Origin: Rubellimicrobium rubrum | GTDB lineage: Bacteria > Pseudomonadota > Alphaproteobacteria > Rhodobacterales > Rhodobacteraceae | Direction: 5' to 3' | NCBI RefSeq assembly: GCF_006152115.1 | Contig: NZ_VDFU01000007.1 | Coordinates: 124,001-188,000, forward strand | Length of the DNA stretch: 64,000 bases | In this document: positions 18,048 through 25,811 of the stretch, one piece after another | Layout of the letters: the number at the start of each line of letters is the position of its first letter | How positions within the stretch are numbered: position 1 is the stretch's first letter | Program-made: the position numbers and the translations under genes | The notes under the pieces: generated by a model | What the model was told of the DNA's origin: nothing | What the model saw: only the letters and a program-made list of their open reading frames with translations | Database searches by the model: none

Positions 18048-18140
18048 GGCTTCACCCCGCCCCAAAACCGGAGGAGGGCTACGCCCCTCGGTATTTGCAT
18101 GCAAGGGGGAAGAGCGCTCTCGCCCTCCCCCCTGGTCCGA

Positions 18141-18371
18141 TCACGCCTGGCCGCCCTTGCGACCGGCCTCGGCCGCACGCGCGCGGTCGTTGGCGAAGTT
18201 GCCACCCGACGACTCGCCGCCCTTTCGACCGGCCGCCGCCGCACGCTTGGGATCGTTCCGGAAGTTCCCGCCCGAAGCCTTGCCGCCCTTGCTGGCGATG
18301 GCCCGCTGCTTTTCCGGATCCATGGCTGCAAAGCCGCGCGGAGGTGTGCTGGTGCCTTCTTGGTTGGCCAT
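18141..18371 (-). CDS. KGG-repeat stress protein (YciG-like)
   Basis: 76-residue, highly hydrophilic protein. It begins MANQEGTSTPPRGFAAMDPE and carries repeats of the KGG type: SKGGKASGGNF, RKGGESSGGNF and a final RKGG, separated by N/D-rich linkers. This is the general-stress/KGG family, thought to be disordered and induced by desiccation, osmotic or stationary stress. Good ribosome site (ACAGGAGG). An EcfG-type promoter lies just upstream (18408-18432), which gives independent support for stress regulation. Molecular role not known. Confidence 0.9.
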   Translation of the reverse strand: MANQEGTSTPPRGFAAMDPEKQRAIASKGGKASGGNFRNDPKRAAAAGRKGGESSGGNFANDRARAAEAGRKGGQA

Positions 18372-18407
18372 CGTGGCCTCCTGTCCGTTGACTCATGCGG
18401 CCCACCG

Positions 18408-18432
18408 AACCGGGATCGGTCGCGAATGTTCC
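18408..18432 (-). promoter_or_regulatory. EcfG-type general-stress promoter of the KGG gene
   Basis: On the minus strand GGAAC (18432-18428) is followed by 17 bases and then GTT (18410-18408), matching the alphaproteobacterial EcfG sigma consensus GGAAC-N16/17-(C)GTT. Transcription would start near 18400, about 30 nt ahead of the KGG start codon. The position in front of a stress-family gene makes a chance match less likely. Confidence 0.7.
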
Positions 18433-18538
18433 ACGCTCGTTTCGCAAAGTTCGCTTCCCCGCCATCGTTGGTCCCGGCTGGCCTTTTCCGTTCAGGTCGG
18501 GCTTTCTGTCCTTGGGCGGCTGGCATGGGTGGGCAGCA

Positions 18539-19987
18539 ATGAGCTACGACGACCACGACGCGACCGGTCTGGCCGAACTCGTGGAAGCGGGCCGTGCAAG
18601 CCCGGACGAACTGCTGGACGAGGCGCTGACCCGCGTGCAATCCCGAAACCCTGCCATCAACGCAGTGGTTCTGGTTCAAGAGGACCGTGCGCGCGAGGCA
18701 ATCCGTAAGGGCCTGCCTCGCGGGCCTTTCCAAGGAGTGCCGTTCCTGCTCAAGGATCTCGGTGCCGAAGCGGTGGGATTTCCAAGCCATTCCGGGTCGC
18801 GGCTGCACGCCGACACCGTATGGCCAGAGGATTCGGCCCTTGTGGCACGGCTCCGGGCTGCGGGGCTCGTCATCTTCGGGCGCACCACCTCGCCCGAAGG
18901 GGGGATCGGGCCTGCCACCGAAGCCGCCGTCTACCGTGGGCCGACCCGCAATCCTTGGAACCTCGATCATACGCCAGGGGGGTCCTCGGGCGGGGCTGGT
19001 GCAGCCGTCGCCGCAGGGATCGTGCCCGCGGCGCACGGGTCGGACGGGGGCGGATCGATCCGGATCCCCGCCTCGAACTGCGGTTTGTTCGGTTTCAAGG
19101 CCACCCGTGCCCGTTTCCCGGATGGGCCTTATGCCGGCGAGGGCTGGGGCGGCATGGCGATCGACGGTTTCCTGACCCGAACCGTTCGCGACTCTGCGGC
19201 GTTGATGGACGCCTGCGAAGGCGCTGATGCTGGCGCGCCCTACGTGGCCCCCCCGCTGGTCAAGGGCTATATGGCAGCCATCGCCCGCCCTCCCGAGCGA
19301 CTCCGGATCGGCGTCTGCGACACGACCTTCACAGGGGACCCTGTGGACAAGGACTGTGCCGAAGCGGTCCATGAAGCGGCGAAGCTTCTCGATGCGCTGG
19401 GTCACGAAATCCGGCCCTATCGCCCCAAAGCGGACCACGACGGCATGATCCGGGCCTGGGTTGACATCGTGGCCTGCGGAACCGCGCTGGGGATCCGGTC
19501 GGCGCTTGCAGGCCGCCCGGCCGAGGACTGGATCGAGCCAGTTTCACGCGGGGCGCTGGCGCATGCGGCCACTTTGTCCGGCGAAGACTATCTCGATGCG
19601 ATAGGTCGCATCCATGCCTATGGCCGCCAGATGGCGGAAGCTTTCGAGCCGATCGACATTCTCCTGTCCCCAGTTATGGCCGAACCGCCTGCTCGGATCG
19701 GTCGCTTCGCCCACCGATCGGACGACTACGTGGACTATCGGCTCGGGCCCCACGGCGTGTGGCCCTACTCGCCGTTCTGCACCGCCTTCAACGCCAGTGG
19801 GCAGCCCGCTGCCTCCCTTCCGCTTCATTGGACGGCCGGTGGCCTTCCGGTCGGCGTTCAACTCGCCGCCCCCTTCGGCAAGGATGAGACGCTGATCGCC
19901 TTGTGCCGCGAGGTCGAGATGGCCCGGCCCTGGTTCCACCGCAGGTCGCCCCCGCTGGACAAGCCGGAGCGCCCCGATGCAGCATGA
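18539..19987 (+). CDS. Amidase (amidase-signature family) of the polyamine locus
   Basis: 482-residue amidase-signature hydrolase, cytoplasmic, no signal peptide. Seen: the catalytic lysine region FLLKDLGAE, the glycine/serine stretch [16 protein letters not shown] and the nucleophile region [13 protein letters not shown] that complete the Ser-Ser-Lys triad, and a C-terminal [16 protein letters not shown]. Overall similarity is to 6-aminohexanoate-cyclic-dimer-hydrolase-like amidases. The last 11 nt overlap the potA start, so it is the first gene of the polyamine importer operon. An amide derivative of a polyamine is therefore a reasonable but unproven substrate. ATG 18539 chosen because the upstream in-frame segment looks non-homologous; its ribosome site is weak. 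Confidence 0.85.
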
Positions 19988-21074
19988 CCCCAACAACCAT
20001 GGGGGACAGCACGTGAGCGCAAGGCCGGCGGTTTCCGCAGAAAGGGTCACCAAGCGGTTCGGCCAAGGCACCGCCGACGTGCGCGCCTTGGACGAGGTTT
20101 CGGTCAGCGTCGCCAGAGGCGAGTTCTTCACGTTGCTCGGGCCGTCCGGCTGCGGCAAGACCACCCTCCTGCGCTGCATCGCGGGCTTCGAAACTCCAAG
20201 TGCGGGCCGTATCCATCTGAACGGAAAGGACATCACCGACGAACCTCCGAACCGGAGGCGCGTGAACACGGTGTTCCAGTCCTATGCCCTGTTCCCGCAT
20301 CTCACCGTGGCACAGAATGTGGCGTTCGGGCTGGAGATGATGGGCAAGCCACGCGCGGAGGTCAGCCGGACCGTTGACCGTATGCTGGCGCTCGTCCGGC
20401 TCGACCAACTGGCTGCCCGCCGACCCGAGGCACTGTCTGGTGGACAGCAGCAGCGCGTGGCCTTGGCTCGCGCGCTCGCGCCGCAGCCCGAAGTCCTGCT
20501 TCTCGACGAACCCTTGTCGGCTCTCGACCTCAAACTCCGCAAGGAGATGCAATCCGAGCTGAAACGGCTCCAGCACGAGACGGGGATCACCTTCGTCTTC
20601 GTGACGCACGATCAGGAAGAGGCCCTGACCATGTCGGACCGGATCGGCGTGATGTCGACCGGACGGCTCCTGCAGGTCGGCCCGCCGCGCGAGATCTACA
20701 ACAGGCCGGTGAACCGCTTCGTCGCCGACTTCATCGGTGAGACCAACTTCATCCCCGCTATGGCTCAGGGTGGCCAGGTCCGCCTCGCCTCGGGCGAGGT
20801 GGTGGGCGAAAGCGCGCAGGCCGGCCCCGTCACCGTGGCGATTCGGCCCGAGCAGATCCGCCTATCCGAGCCCGGCGAAGTCGGAGGCATCCCGGCGACC
20901 GTAGAGGGCGCGACCTACTTGGGGACAGACAGCCACATCCATCTGCGCCTCAAGGACGGGTCGCCCGTGGTGGCGCGGGTGCCCTCCCTGCCCTCGGCTG
21001 AACCCGGCCCAGCGCCGGGCAGCTCGGTCGGGTTGCGCGTGGCACCCGGGGCAGTTCAGGTGCTGGAGGACTGA
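19977..21074 (+). CDS. potA: Polyamine ABC importer, ATPase
   Basis: 365-residue ATPase of the spermidine/putrescine (POPT) class. Walker [12 protein letters not shown] (~52-62), signature LSGGQQQR (~151), Walker [15 protein letters not shown]-loop VTHDQEEA, and a C-terminal TOBE domain. The start ATG lies inside the end of the amidase gene. A GTG at 20013 with a GGGGGA site is an alternative start, which would give 353 residues. Followed after three bases by the first permease gene. Confidence 0.92.
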
Positions 21075-21077
21075 GGC

Positions 21078-21992
21078 ATGACGTCAGGAGCCGCCGAAGC
21101 GGCTGGCCTGCGGCGCCGGACCCGAGCCGGATGGCTCCTGTCCACGCCCGCGCTGGTTCTTCTGGCCGCGGGTGCGGCCGGCCCCCTGCTCGTGGTGCTG
21201 GTCTTTTCGTTCCTGAGCCAAGGCGAGTATGGAGGCGTGTCCCTCCCCTTCTCTGGCGAGGCTTGGTTTCGCATCTTCCTGCAACGCGACATCTTCGACG
21301 GAACGGTCAGCGCCGCCGACGCTCACCTGGCGATCTTTTGGCGCTCGGTCTGGATCTCCCTGGCGACCACCCTCATCACCTTCGCGATGGGGCTGCCGAC
21401 GGCATGGTTCATCGCGACGCGACCGCCCGGGCAGCGGAGCCTTTGGCTCTTCCTCATCACCATCCCGTTCTGGACCAATCTCCTGATCCGGACCTTTGCG
21501 ATCATGGAGGTGATCCGGAACGAGGGGCTACTGAACACGGCGCTCCTCAGCCTCGGCGTCATCGATCAGCCGATCCAGATCCTGTTCACCGATTGGGCCA
21601 CCCTCATCGGCACCACCTACGTCTACCTGCCGCTCATGGTGCTACCGCTTTACGCCGCCATCGATCGCTTCGACATGCGCCTGCTCGAAGCCGGCTACGA
21701 CCTTTATGCCAGCCGCTGGAGCGTGCTGAGACGCGTGATCCTGCCGCTCGTGCGGCCAGGCATCGTGGCGGGCTGCATCCTGGTCTTCATCCCGTCGCTC
21801 GGCGCCTATGTGACGCCCCGGATCTTGGGCGGAGGGAAGAACATGATGATCGGCAACTTCATCGAGTTGCAGTTCGGCCAAGCCCGCAATTGGCCGCTTG
21901 GCGCTGCCCTGTCGATGGCCTTGATGGTGGTCGTGATGGCCGCCCTGCTGGTCTATGTGCGCGTGTCGGCGCGGGAGGGACGGGATGACTGA
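21078..21992 (+). CDS. potB: Polyamine ABC importer, permease 1
   Basis: 304-residue PotB-type permease with six predicted helices. The first, after a basic tail, is WLLSTPALVLLAAGAAGPLLVVLVFSF by position 20-46. The EAA-type loop reads LLEAGYDLYASRWSVLRRVI. The conserved segment FWTNLLIRTFA is characteristic of PotB/PotH proteins. Its end overlaps the start of permease 2 by eight bases. Confidence 0.92.
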   Translation: MTSGAAEAAGLRRRTRAGWLLSTPALVLLAAGAAGPLLVVLVFSFLSQGEYGGVSLPFSGEAWFRIFLQRDIFDGTVSAADAHLAIFWRSVWISLATTLITFAMGLPTAWFIATRPPGQRSLWLFLITIPFWTNLLIRTFAIMEVIRNEGLLNTALLSLGVIDQPIQILFTDWATLIGTTYVYLPLMVLPLYAAIDRFDMRLLEAGYDLYASRWSVLRRVILPLVRPGIVAGCILVFIPSLGAYVTPRILGGGKNMMIGNFIELQFGQARNWPLGAALSMALMVVVMAALLVYVRVSAREGRDD

Positions 21993-22854
21993 GATTCGCG
22001 TTGCCGCTGCACCGGATGCTCCACCCCTTGCAGCCACCCGTACGGCGCCCCCGTTTTCGGTCACCCGAATGCCGGGGTTCGGGCTGGTGGCCGTGGCGTC
22101 GTTCGCCGTCCTTTACCTGCCTATCATCACTCTTGTGATTTTCTCCTTCAACGCCTCCACTTCGATGTCATCCTGGGGCGGCTTGTCGCTCGACTGGTAT
22201 CGGGCAGCTTGGCGAAACGAGGTGGTGCAAGAGGCGACGGTCCGGTCGCTGATCCTGGCCACTTCGGCTGCGGTCATCTCGACGACCGTGGCGACCCTGG
22301 CGGCCCTTGGCACGACGCGTCAGGGCCGCTTCCCGGGCCGGACCGCTATCTATGCCATGGTCAACCAGCCCCTGATGGTGCCCGAGATCGTCACGGCGGT
22401 GTCGCTGCTGATCGTGTTCGGCTTCGTTCGTAGCCTGACCGGCTATCAAGGGCTCGGTTATCTGATCCTGGCTCATTCGGCGTTCTGCGTGCCCTTCGCC
22501 TATCTTCCGATCCGGGCCCGGCTGGAGGGCATGGACCGGACATTGGAGCTTGCGGCCGCCGACCTTTACGCCTCGCCAGTCCAGGCGTTCCGCCGGATCA
22601 CTCTGCCGCTTCTGGCGCCGGGCATCATGGCGGGCGCGATGCTGGCCTTCGTGGTGTCTCTCGATGACGTAGTCATCACGGAGTTCGTCAAATCGGCCGG
22701 CCAGGACACATTGGCCACCTACATGCTGGGCCAGTTTCGCCGAACCCTTACGCCCGAAGTCAACGCGATCTCGACGGCACTCCTGGGGTTTACGCTGGTG
22801 CTGCTGACTGGCTTCTTCCTCATCACGCGAAAGCGGGCCCGAGACCCGCGATAA
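21985..22854 (+). CDS. potC: Polyamine ABC importer, permease 2
   Basis: 289-residue PotC/PotI-type permease, six helices. Family marks: LYLPIITLVIFSFNAS in helix 1, SLDWYRAAW in the first periplasmic loop, EAA loop LELAAADLYASPVQAFRRITL, and SLDDVVITEFVKS before the fifth helix. ATG 21985 has a GGGAGGGAC site; a longer start would read deep into potB. Confidence 0.92.
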   Translation: MTEIRVAAAPDAPPLAATRTAPPFSVTRMPGFGLVAVASFAVLYLPIITLVIFSFNASTSMSSWGGLSLDWYRAAWRNEVVQEATVRSLILATSAAVISTTVATLAALGTTRQGRFPGRTAIYAMVNQPLMVPEIVTAVSLLIVFGFVRSLTGYQGLGYLILAHSAFCVPFAYLPIRARLEGMDRTLELAAADLYASPVQAFRRITLPLLAPGIMAGAMLAFVVSLDDVVITEFVKSAGQDTLATYMLGQFRRTLTPEVNAISTALLGFTLVLLTGFFLITRKRARDPR

Positions 22855-22868
22855 CTCAGGGAGTCCTC

Positions 22869-23894
22869 ATGAAGACGCTTTACCTCAGCGCGGCGCTCGG
22901 CCTGCTCACCACCGCTGCGGCGGCGCAGGACCGGCAGCTCCAGCTCTACAACTGGGGCGACTACACCTCGCCCGAGATGATCGAGAAGTTCGAAGGCGAG
23001 ACCGGCATCGACGTCACGATCACCGATTACGACAGCAACGACACGGCTTTGGCCAAGGTGCAGGCAGGCGGACACGGCTTCGACCTCGTGGTTCCGTCGG
23101 CCAACTATGTGCAGATCTGGGTCGAGCAGGGCCTCCTGCAAGAACTGGATCATGCGCGCCTGACCAACATCGGCAACATCGCCCCCGAATGGGTCGATGT
23201 CGCTTGGGATCCCGGCCGCCGTTACACCATTCCATGGCAGTGGGGCTCTACCGGCGTGTCGGTCAACACCTCGGTCTATTCAGGCGACATCAACACGTCG
23301 AACATCTTCCTCGACCCGCCGCCCGAGTTGCACGGCAAAATCAACGTCGTGCCCGAGATGAACGACATCATCTCCCTAACCATCATGAATGTCGGGGGCG
23401 AGCCCTGCACCGAGGACTTGGAGGTCCTGCGCCAGGTCCGCGACAAGCTCATGAACGCCAAGCAGTACTGGCTGTCCATGGACTACGATTCAGAGGCCAA
23501 GCTGTCGGCCAACGACATCATGGCGGCAGCCACTTGGAACGGGCCGTCGATGCGCGCCAGGCTCAACAACCCGCCGGTGCAGTTCGGCTATCCCAAGGAA
23601 GGCTATCCGCTCTGGATGGACTCGGTGGCGCTGCTTGCGGACGCGCAGAACGTGGACGAAGCCTATGAATTCCTCGACTTCATTATGGCCCCCGAGAACG
23701 CGGCCATGATCTCCAACTATGCGCGCTATGGCAACGGCATCGCTGGGTCCGAAGAGTTCATGGATGCGGAGATGCGCACCGCACCCGAGATCGCCATCCC
23801 GGAGGAGCACCGCGCCGCCGGCGTGTTCCTGCCAAGCTGCCCGGCCTCGGCGGTCAACATCTACTCGCAGATCTGGACCGAGCTTCAGAGCTAA
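22869..23894 (+). CDS. potD: Polyamine ABC importer, periplasmic binding protein
   Basis: 341-residue PotD/PotF-type binding protein. A short signal peptide ends at AAAA-QD (~residue 20). The mature N-terminus LQLYNWGDYTSPEMIEKFE is the hallmark of polyamine-binding proteins, and IPWQWGSTGVSVNTSVY follows near residue 118. Which polyamine it binds (putrescine, spermidine or an acylated form) cannot be told without aligning pocket residues. Last gene of the plus-strand operon, closed by a hairpin terminator. Confidence 0.92.
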   Translation: MKTLYLSAALGLLTTAAAAQDRQLQLYNWGDYTSPEMIEKFEGETGIDVTITDYDSNDTALAKVQAGGHGFDLVVPSANYVQIWVEQGLLQELDHARLTNIGNIAPEWVDVAWDPGRRYTIPWQWGSTGVSVNTSVYSGDINTSNIFLDPPPELHGKINVVPEMNDIISLTIMNVGGEPCTEDLEVLRQVRDKLMNAKQYWLSMDYDSEAKLSANDIMAAATWNGPSMRARLNNPPVQFGYPKEGYPLWMDSVALLADAQNVDEAYEFLDFIMAPENAAMISNYARYGNGIAGSEEFMDAEMRTAPEIAIPEEHRAAGVFLPSCPASAVNIYSQIWTELQS

Positions 23895-23904
23895 CCCAGC
23901 AGGC

Positions 23905-23923
23905 GGGCACCTAGACGGTGCCC
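23905..23923. terminator. Hairpin between convergent potD and aguB
   Basis: Seven-bp perfect stem GGGCACC/GGTGCCC with a five-base loop, 11 nt after the potD stop and seven nt before the aguB stop. Only AATTCCT follows on the plus strand, so it is a weak T-run but well placed for bidirectional termination. Confidence 0.6.
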
Positions 23924-23929
23924 AATTCC

Positions 23930-24787
23930 TCAGAGTGCGTTCAGGCGGCCATAAAGAGCCGGCCGCCTGTCGCGGAACAAGCCCCATTCCCGGCGTAGCG
24001 CGGCGCATCGATCAAGATCGATGGTGGCGAGTACGATCTCCTCGTGCTCGCGCGAACCTTTGGCCAGAGTCTCGCCCGTCGCGCCGGCGACGAAGGATGA
24101 TCCGTAGAAGGCCACCTTGCGCCCGCCCTGGACCTCCGCGCCGATGCGGTTGGAGGCGACCAGCGGCATGAGGTTGGCGGCCGCATGACCGCGCATCACC
24201 GTTTCCCAATGGGGCTGGCTGTCATAACCCGGAGCTTCGGGCTCGCTGCCGATGGCGCTGGGGTAGAGCAGGACCTCGGCCCCCATGAGCGCCATGGCCC
24301 GTGCCGCCTCGGGAAACCACTGGTCCCAGCAGATGCCAATACCGATCCGTCCGACGACCGTGTCCCAGACCTGGAACCCCGTGTCGCCGGGCGAGAAGAA
24401 GAACTTCTCCTCATATCCCGGGTTCTGCGGGATGTGGCTCTTGCGGTAGACGCCCAGCACACGGCCGTCAGCGTCCACCACCGCCACGGAGTTGAAGTGG
24501 GCCTGCCCCGCGCGTTCGAAGAACGGCACTGGCAGCACGATCCCCAGTTCTCTCGCGAGATCGGCAAAGCGTGCGATCAGCGGGTGGCTGTCGACAGGCT
24601 GGGCCAGCGCCAGGAACCGAGGGTCCTGGGTGATGCAGAAGTACCGCGACTCGAACAGTTCCTGCAGCAGGACGAGCCGCGCACCCCGCGCCGCGGCCTC
24701 CCGAACCATCGCCTCGGCCTTGTCCGCGTTGTCGGCCAGGGTCTCGGAGGCTGCAAACTGGAGGGCAGCGACCGTAACCTCACGCAT
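23930..24787 (-). CDS. aguB: N-carbamoylputrescine amidase
   Basis: 285-residue nitrilase-superfamily enzyme that hydrolyses N-carbamoylputrescine to putrescine, CO2 and ammonia. The catalytic triad is visible: Glu43 in LLQELFESRYF, Lys116 in YRKSHIP, Cys153 in GICWDQWFPE. The RYFCITQDP and NPGYEEKFFFSPGDTGF segments are typical of AguB. The start ATG 24787 overlaps the stop of the upstream deacetylase gene (ATGCGTGA), so the two are translationally coupled. No agmatine deiminase (AguA) lies in the window, so this enzyme may serve carbamoyl- or amide-polyamines brought in by the adjacent importer. Confidence 0.92.
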   Translation of the reverse strand: MREVTVAALQFAASETLADNADKAEAMVREAAARGARLVLLQELFESRYFCITQDPRFLALAQPVDSHPLIARFADLARELGIVLPVPFFERAGQAHFNSVAVVDADGRVLGVYRKSHIPQNPGYEEKFFFSPGDTGFQVWDTVVGRIGIGICWDQWFPEAARAMALMGAEVLLYPSAIGSEPEAPGYDSQPHWETVMRGHAAANLMPLVASNRIGAEVQGGRKVAFYGSSFVAGATGETLAKGSREHEEIVLATIDLDRCAALRREWGLFRDRRPALYGRLNAL

Positions 24788-25811
24788 CCTCGAAGCCTTC
24801 CAGAACATTCACCGTGTTGAGGCCTACTTGTTCAATGGCATAGCCGCCCTCCATGCAGAACACGGTCGGCAGGCCCATGCGGCCGATTCGCCGGCCGCAA
24901 TCCAGGAAATCGGGGCTGTCCAGCTTGAAGAAGCTGATCGGATCGTCCTTGTAGGCATCCACGCCCAGCGACACGACCAACGCCTCCGCGCCCCAGTTCG
25001 TGATGCGGCGGACCACACCATCCAGCGCCTCGGCCCACGGCCCATAAGCCGTGCCGGGTCCGAATGGGACGTTGATGTTGGCCCCCTCGCCTTCGCCCTC
25101 GCCCATCTCATCGGCAAAGCCCGCGAAGTAAGGATAAGCGTCCAGCGGGTCGCCATGGATCGACGCGAACAGCACGTCACCCCGGCGATAGAAGATGTCC
25201 TGCGTCCCGTTCCCATGATGGAAGTCCACATCGAGGATCGCCACCCGCCCGGCGCCCTGATCGCGGAACATCTGGGCCACGACCGCAGCGTTGTTCAGGA
25301 AGCAGTAGCCGCCGTACTGGTCCGATGTCGCGTGGTGCCCGGGCGGGCGGCACAGGGCGAATGCCGCTCGCGCCCCGTTCGCTACTTCGCGCTGCGCCGC
25401 CTGAGCCGAAGCCATGGAAGATTGGGCGGCCCGCCAAGTGCCTCCCGTGATGGCGGTCTCGCTGGCGTGGCAGTAGTATTCGACCTTGCCGTCGATGTTG
25501 CGGGGGATGCGGTCATGCCGCTGCCGCCGTGTCGGCATCCCGGCCGCGATCACCTCCCCGCCCTGCCCGGCCGCCTTCCATTCGTCGTAGGCGGTTTCCA
25601 GGAACGCAAGGAACCCAGGATCGAGCAGCGTGCGAACAGGCCCCATGTCGATCGGACCAGGCGCAACGATCTCTCCGAACTTGCGCTCCTTGAGCCGGGC
25701 TAGCACGTACTCGATCCGGGAGGGGCGCTCGTAGGGGGTGACGAACTCGCCCCCCGACAACTCGGCCTGCGGAAAGTGCAGGCGGTGATCCTCGCTGAAA
25801 AACGTCTTCAT
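24780..25811 (-). CDS. Acetylpolyamine deacetylase (class II HDAC-like)
   Basis: 343-residue zinc amidohydrolase of the histone-deacetylase family. Length, N-terminus and motif spacing are those of bacterial acetylpolyamine aminohydrolases. Seen: the His159-His160 charge-relay pair in RPPGHHAT, zinc ligands Asp196 and His198 in LDVDFHHGNGT, Asp285 in LGVDAYKDDP, and the transition-state tyrosine Tyr324 in EGGYA. It would remove acetyl groups from N-acetylputrescine, -cadaverine or -spermidine. Good GGAGAG ribosome site. First gene of a two-gene unit with aguB, converging on the importer operon; together they look like import and deblocking of modified polyamines. Confidence 0.92.
   Translation of the reverse strand: MKTFFSEDHRLHFPQAELSGGEFVTPYERPSRIEYVLARLKERKFGEIVAPGPIDMGPVRTLLDPGFLAFLETAYDEWKAAGQGGEVIAAGMPTRRQRHDRIPRNIDGKVEYYCHASETAITGGTWRAAQSSMASAQAAQREVANGARAAFALCRPPGHHATSDQYGGYCFLNNAAVVAQMFRDQGAGRVAILDVDFHHGNGTQDIFYRRGDVLFASIHGDPLDAYPYFAGFADEMGEGEGEGANINVPFGPGTAYGPWAEALDGVVRRITNWGAEALVVSLGVDAYKDDPISFFKLDSPDFLDCGRRIGRMGLPTVFCMEGGYAIEQVGLNTVNVLEGFEDA

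Follow-up and report, generated by a model that had tools for sequence, protein, structure and literature searches.

Polyamine importers are usually annotated for the uptake of free putrescine or spermidine, and the natural context of the hydrolase families NylA and NylB is usually argued from laboratory nylon by-products. In a 64-kb window of Rubellimicrobium rubrum (the window is the whole stretch of DNA that was analysed), an importer of the ATP-binding cassette (ABC) type shares an operon with an amidase and faces the genes of two further hydrolases, the N-carbamoylputrescine amidase AguB and an acetylpolyamine amidohydrolase (APAH). The importer resembles PotABCD and PotFGHI of Escherichia coli in its four parts and in its distal acidic positions 171 and 257, both Asp in the clade to which it belongs. 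The clade differs from these systems (passages of PMC8666671 and PMC11414716) by a position 36 (39 in PotF) that is mostly Asn, by an Asp at position 171 in 46 of 46 proteins where PotD has Glu, and by an operon that mostly holds amide hydrolases. The APAH belongs to the same enzyme family as PA0321 and PA1409 of Pseudomonas aeruginosa, which remove the acetyl group from acetylputrescine and acetylcadaverine and sustain growth on both; the word amidase occurs 0 times in the main text of that paper, and its passages at hand name no dedicated importer of the acetyl forms (PMC4784309).

Among solved structures only, the amidase is closest to NylA (3a2p), which leads the next other protein widely (277 bits against 160 bits). 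Unlike NylA and NylB as nylon-oligomer hydrolases, the NylA- and NylB-like genes described here adjoin an importer and polyamine enzymes. In Pseudomonas putida, linear dimers and trimers of 6-aminohexanoate reach cytosolic NylB through the putative polyamine ABC transporter PP_0411-4, whose deletion reduced growth on both without abolishing it, according to passages of PMC11879879. The likeness of that engineered NYLON-B strain is that a polyamine-type importer feeds omega-amino amide oligomers to a cytosolic NylB; it was built in the laboratory, whereas the potABCD-NylB operons reported below are natural and are not described in those passages. Judged by title or start of abstract, none among the literature matches listed joins these hydrolases and a polyamine-type ABC importer in one operon.

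The linkage of the amidase with the transporter is real and wider than the first-pass annotation of this DNA had supposed, and the importer and the hydrolases very probably form a functional unit. The seven genes are all open and lie in the order which that annotation gave, with amidase-potABCD on the forward strand converging on aguB and the APAH gene on the reverse strand:

18539..19987, +, amidase-signature hydrolase (AMD), first gene of the operon (PF01425, 3.2e-92)
19977..21074, +, PotA-like ATPase (TIGR01187, 371.9 bits, above the cut-off of 355.6)
21078..21992, +, PotB-like permease (PRK09497, 238 bits, below the cut-off of 348)
21955..22854 (alternative start: ATG at 21985), +, PotC-like permease (PRK09500, 197 bits, below the cut-off of 326)
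22869..23894, +, PotD/PotF-like binding protein (top PDB matches are putrescine/spermidine-binding proteins)
23905..23923, no strand, inverted repeat GGGCACC-N5-GGTGCCC with a 7-bp stem, between the converging stop codons
23930..24808, -, AguB, N-carbamoylputrescine amidase (TIGR03381, 438.3 against a cut-off of 410.25; PDB 5h8i, 4.4e-108)
24780..25811, -, acetylpolyamine amidohydrolase (PF00850; PDB 3q9b, 1.2e-128, residues 1-340)

The three hydrolases fall into the families that had been claimed for them. Amidase and potA overlap by 11 bp, the genes from potA to potD are separated by gaps of 3 to 14 bp or overlap, and aguB and the APAH gene overlap by up to 29 bp. Both converging operons were confirmed; the common hairpin on which they had been said to meet did not stand as well. 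The 35 bp between the stop codons of potD and aguB do contain a perfect 7-bp stem; many shuffled sequences, however, fold as well as this region does (z = -1.0, with 25 of 200 equally good), so the shared hairpin is weak evidence and was rejected as a sign of shared regulation. PotA reaches the cut-off of the TIGR01187 polyamine subfamily, while PotB, PotC and PotD/PotF stay below the equivalog cut-offs, the window PotD with 153-154 of the 582-636 bits of the PotD and PotF equivalogs. By these scores the importer is a relative, not an equivalog, of PotABCD. Rubellimicrobium sp. CFH 75288 (L097; G and L numbers are our handles for genomes and loci) has the complete set of seven genes together with the MFS and ndk flanks, an amidase of 78% identity and an insertion of about 2.4 kb between potD and aguB. 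A transposase-like open reading frame (L097:14452-15423), which we take to be IS1595-like, separates the two operons there.

To keep the count independent of hand-picked loci, the window PotD was searched against 149 genomes of the family (E <= 1e-85), which gave 63 matches in 53 genomes. These split into a clade of 47 (46 at 47-100% identity and the partial G129) and 16 siblings at 40-43%, and a starred branch separates the clade from the siblings in a maximum-likelihood tree of 62 PotDs. Operons were scored by chaining labelled genes to the pot genes over gaps of less than 300 bp; the stretch taken for G129 does not reach its potD, and contig ends cut some of the others. With labels chosen from the clade loci and ancestry uncorrected, at least one labelled amide hydrolase is held by 41 of the 47 clade operons and by 0 of the 16 sibling operons (Fisher p = 2e-10). 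The hydrolase varies by subclade, being an amidase-signature protein such as the NylA-like one of the window, a NylB-like serine hydrolase or a PF07969 metallo-amidohydrolase (AMD 13, AMD2 9, AMD3 12, NylB-like 12, NYLB2 1, PF07969 11). The partner types require 25 changes on the PotD tree against a shuffled mean of 44.9, and none of 200 shuffles was as low; since inheritance also predicts that partner types follow subclades, this shows no more than a difference of hydrolase between subclades. According to passages of the preprint PMC13081902, the amide hydrolases NfdA and AtzC belong to the PF07969 family, as does a new class of bile salt hydrolase; the solved relatives of the one linked PF07969 protein that was scanned are all uncharacterised. 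An APAH gene lies within 6 kb of the clade pot genes in G000, G004, G010, G013 and G057, and two more distant potABCD rows (L073, L074) carry an APAH and a class-III transaminase.

Sibling operons have as partners APAH (2), a class-III transaminase (2) and a flavin mononucleotide (FMN) oxidoreductase (4). As an observation of its own, potABCD is followed in the sibling loci L346 and L353 by an FMN oxidoreductase of about 700 aa (PF00724 scanned in L346; the L353 protein is 56% identical). In the clade operon of G031b, the place of an amide hydrolase upstream of potA is taken by an 844-aa DAO-GcvT fusion (L345:2266-4800), which hints at a methylated amine.

The amidase itself was searched in the same 149 genomes (E <= 1e-90), with at most 10 first-look candidates scored per genome. 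This gave 37 matches in 36 genomes, 32 of them with at least 55% identity. In fifteen of these 32 cases, the homologue immediately precedes a potA of the same strand (G000, G147, G077, G121, G012, G030, G013, G091, G018, G034, G111, G021, G051, G104 and G022). Two more adjoin the other hydrolases, the amidase of G057 being convergent with AguB-APAH and that of G140 lying about 15 bp after APAH. The refuting condition set by the first-pass annotation, an amidase that is unlinked to the transporter in other genomes, does not hold. In a Neomegalonema metagenome-assembled genome (MAG; L108), about 37 bp separate the amidase from an APAH gene that immediately precedes it. Amidase-potABCD is also present in Nisaea denitrificans (L103) and a Xanthobacteraceae MAG (L166), and in Ancylobacter defluvii (L111) with a PF07969-type gene between them on the opposite strand. 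No NCBIfam amidase equivalog reached its cut-off with the window amidase (best 321 of 418). Its residues K72, S149 and S173, which we take to be the Lys/cis-Ser/Ser triad, are invariant in the 13 sequences of group A1.

Two candidates for further linkage did not hold. An ABC ATPase next to amidase homologues, 38-41% identical to PotA, was rejected as part of a Pot system; in G110 it continues into FtsX-like and HlyD-like genes, and the others are relatives by cluster. A second amidase of the R. rubrum genome that lies by a PotA-like ATPase (L186) was dropped because its neighbours read, from their sequences, as a sulfate/thiosulfate-type ABC operon.

The pocket of the binding protein was read from printed alignments, in which positions 36, 168, 171 and 257 of PotD correspond to D31, E163, D166 and D251 of the window protein. 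In PotD, E36, D168, E171 and D257 make ionic contacts to spermidine (passages of PMC11414716). D39 of PotF lies in the proximal amine (N1) site and is at least 96% conserved in 250 hits of polyamine systems (passages of PMC8666671). At position 36, 38 of the 46 clade proteins (G129 dropped) have N, 7 have D and 1 has E, whereas 15 of the 16 siblings have E and one has D; among the 12 loci read from named genomes, 8 have N and 4 have D. Positions 171 and 257 are each Asp in 46 of 46 clade PotDs. A neutral proximal site together with acidic distal residues fits a ligand that would have one free ammonium and one capped end. The window PotD is acidic at all four positions (D, E, D, D). A loss of E171 in this protein was considered and rejected, since the printed alignments place Asp there, a conservative change.

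From the genes, families, linkage, operon counts and residue patterns that we observe, we infer the transport substrate, the direction of transport and all enzyme activities. The reading that we favour, with some reserve, is that the importer takes up amide-capped polyamines or omega-amino amides and that interchangeable cytosolic hydrolases remove the cap. Such a salvage system would act on amide-capped polyamine-type cations (N-acetyl-, N-carbamoyl- or N-acyl-polyamines or omega-amino amides). PotD would capture the capped cation, holding the free ammonium at the distal acidic site and the capped end at the proximal one, and PotABC would import it. In the cytosol, APAH would remove an acetyl cap, AguB a carbamoyl cap and the amidase a third acyl group, and the freed putrescine-type amine would enter normal catabolism. 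The importer would be constant across the family and the uncapping enzyme would vary, as a NylA-like amidase, a member of one of two other amidase groups, a NylB-like enzyme or a PF07969 protein. If this is true, a whole importer clade would be mis-annotated in dozens of genomes, and polyamines capped by acetylation, by carbamoylation or by conjugation in other organisms would have a route into the bacterial nitrogen supply.

The class-level search outside the family covered 385 genomes, with at most 5 PotD candidates scored per genome (E <= 1e-105). It gave 5 non-self matches from two genera, which are not five independent cases. In four genomes of one genus (L364, L365, L366 and L368), potABCD, two NylB-like genes, AMD3 and APAH follow each other on one strand, and a further gene of about 450 aa comes next. 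In L367, from another family, APAH-AguB lies divergent from potABCD-NylB beyond one regulator-like gene. All five loci thus have NylB-like genes and an APAH in the row or beside it, as the predicted linkage with hydrolases required, and all five PotDs have N at position 36. The earlier proposal of an import of blocked polyamines followed by release of the amine gains strong comparative support from the linkage, the pocket and these loci; the part that stands less well is the window itself, whose PotD keeps the polyamine-type Asp.

Several points weigh against the salvage of capped cations. The operon labels were drawn from the clade loci, which biases a comparison that is also uncorrected for shared ancestry. 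Three of the 16 sibling stretches (G036b, G030b, G146) end less than 1.2 kb past potD, as do some clade stretches, and 4 of the 16 sibling operons carry another C-N hydrolase (APAH in G105 and G072, nitrilase-like in G056 and G104b). Six of the 47 clade operons are without a labelled hydrolase (G093, G010, G030, G083, G024, G031b): G010 has APAH and AguB beside the locus, the G030 locus meets a contig end with its amidase-potA piece at another contig end, and the G083 operon holds a transaminase and a glutamine-synthetase-type protein in place of an amide hydrolase. At position 36, the window PotD and that of L097 keep Asp, as PotF does, which makes the window's own substrate less certain. PotF D39 is also tied to a salt bridge between the lobes and to a water network (passages of PMC8666671), so that Asn at this position need not mean an uncharged ligand end, and the change could instead reflect altered closure. 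Close homologues of the amidase lie away from pot genes in G093, G024, G106 and G141, and homologues of 56-61% precede an exporter-like operon in G005, G044, G087, G110 and G138. These last loci, with an amidase, an ABC ATPase and a large permease that is FtsX-like in the G110 copy read, are read as encoding a putative exporter, which speaks against an exclusive pot role of the amidase. The exporter-like loci (L052, L054, L056, L060, L096) share the ABC ATPase and a permease of 725-795 aa, and 4 of the 5 add an HlyD-like protein of about 412 aa.

Part of this evidence would be expected if the clade were an ordinary putrescine/spermidine importer that shares operons by chance with nitrogen-scavenging amide hydrolases and carries no capped polyamine. 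The four acids of the window PotD, the PotA score above the polyamine ABC cut-off and the commonness of amidases (6 PF01425 matches in this genome) agree with such an importer. It would not predict, however, that 41 of 47 clade operons and none of the 16 siblings hold hydrolases of several unrelated families, that the arrangement is replicated in two further genera, or that E36 is replaced by N in 38 of 46 proteins, and we consider it unlikely.

Somewhat less likely still is the import of another amide-bearing cation, such as an opine, a lactam, a small peptide or an omega-amino acid amide, with APAH and AguB as accidental neighbours. APAH or AguB lies in the operon or no more than 6 kb away at only 6 of the 47 clade loci (G000, G004, G010, G013, G057, G129), most PotDs of the clade are neutral at position 36, and the putative polyamine transporter of P. 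putida named in passages of PMC11879879 takes up 6-aminohexanoate dimers and trimers. An accidental neighbourhood does not explain why APAH comes after AMD3 in the potABCD-NylB-NylB-AMD3 row of four genomes of a second family and why APAH-AguB lies beside potABCD-NylB in a third, and the leading PDB relatives of PotD are named as polyamine- or putrescine-binding.

The salvage of capped cations would have its most interesting consequence in a link to the nylon hydrolases. A serine hydrolase of 410 aa is also encoded at the G057 locus; among solved structures, NylB, the 6-aminohexanoate-dimer hydrolase, is its closest relative (217 bits), and the triad is kept. A search for NylB-like proteins in the 149 family genomes gave 35 matches in 30 genomes, and 30 matches with a locus were examined. 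Twelve of these lie immediately downstream of potD and one (G129) between aguB and potA; a further copy (G004) is beside APAH. The triad of NylB is of the Ser/Lys/Tyr type (passages of PMC10858056). Ser, Lys and Tyr are kept in all copies read. D181 of NylB presumably holds the ammonium of the substrate. An acid stands at position 181 in 21 of 21 NylB-like proteins directly downstream in potABCD rows (D in 19, E in 2), against 3 of 17 homologues without a pot gene in the stretch seen (for most of them, some 1.5 kb on the flank). Phylogeny confounds this pattern, four further matches without a locus are outside the count, and two NYLB2-type copies are exceptions with Arg (L272 upstream of potA; L067 beside APAH). 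It is possible, and we suggest it tentatively, that the natural ligands of the importer clade are omega-amino amides such as N-acylpolyamines and that its loci are a natural home of NylA- and NylB-type hydrolases. The breakdown of nylon fragments would then be an off-shoot of the salvage of capped polyamines, and the two families would gain a natural context and a short list of candidate substrates.

The AguB score clears a curated equivalog cut-off, and E50, K123 and C160 are placed in what we take to be the Glu/Lys/Cys motifs of the nitrilase family. The five best solved relatives of the deacetylase are all named acetylpolyamine amidohydrolase or aminohydrolase, and by family and full-length match to these structures it is probably an acetylpolyamine amidohydrolase. 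H159, H160, D196, H198, D285 and Y324 are the same letters in the aligned PDB 3q9b; H159/H160, D196/H198/D285 and Y324 presumably act as zinc ligands and as catalytic His and Tyr.

The observation that no agmatine deiminase lies nearby extends to the whole genome. The genome (4.6 Mb, 99.98% complete) gave 0 matches to PF04371 at E <= 0.001, and the same search was positive in 5 of 14 control genomes. Matches to other families in this genome number 3 for ureohydrolases, 3 for decarboxylase-fold proteins, the above 6 for amidase-signature proteins and 3 for HDAC-type proteins. Among the 149 family genomes, AguB was found in 21 (E <= 1e-70) and PF04371 in 20, with both in only 7, so that AguA is absent from 14 of the 21 AguB-bearing genomes, some of them incomplete (e.g. 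G147, 73% complete). Of the 11 genomes with an AguB of the window type (at least 64% identity), 9 also carry the amidase. The AguB genomes without AguA and the co-occurrence with the amidase fit an AguB substrate that would not be made by AguA in the same cell. That AguB serves the classical arginine-agmatine-putrescine route through an unrecognised agmatine deiminase, its carbamoyl branch being biosynthetic and not salvage, agrees with the equivalog score and with adjacent AguA and AguB in two family genomes (G113, G148), and it is improbable given that PF04371 is missing here and in those 14 genomes, that the AguB of the adjacent pairs is of a more distant type (50-51% identity), and that the three decarboxylase-fold proteins offer other putative routes to putrescine. 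A citrulline-decarboxylase route to N-carbamoylputrescine was also considered and dropped; the literature on it, among the matches listed and by title or start of abstract, consists of plant papers or reviews.

At three further loci (L233, L235, L237), an AguB of 69-70% identity lies near a gene similar to Orn/DAP/Arg decarboxylases (PF02784 scanned in L235) and a gene of about 143 aa, Lrp/AsnC-like by reading of the L233 copy. A PF09994 protein lies between in L233, and all three genomes are without AguA. In the window, a small open reading frame 5' of the amidase on the opposite strand (18079..18465, -) contains repeated KGG-containing stretches, and we take it to resemble a stress-induced small protein.

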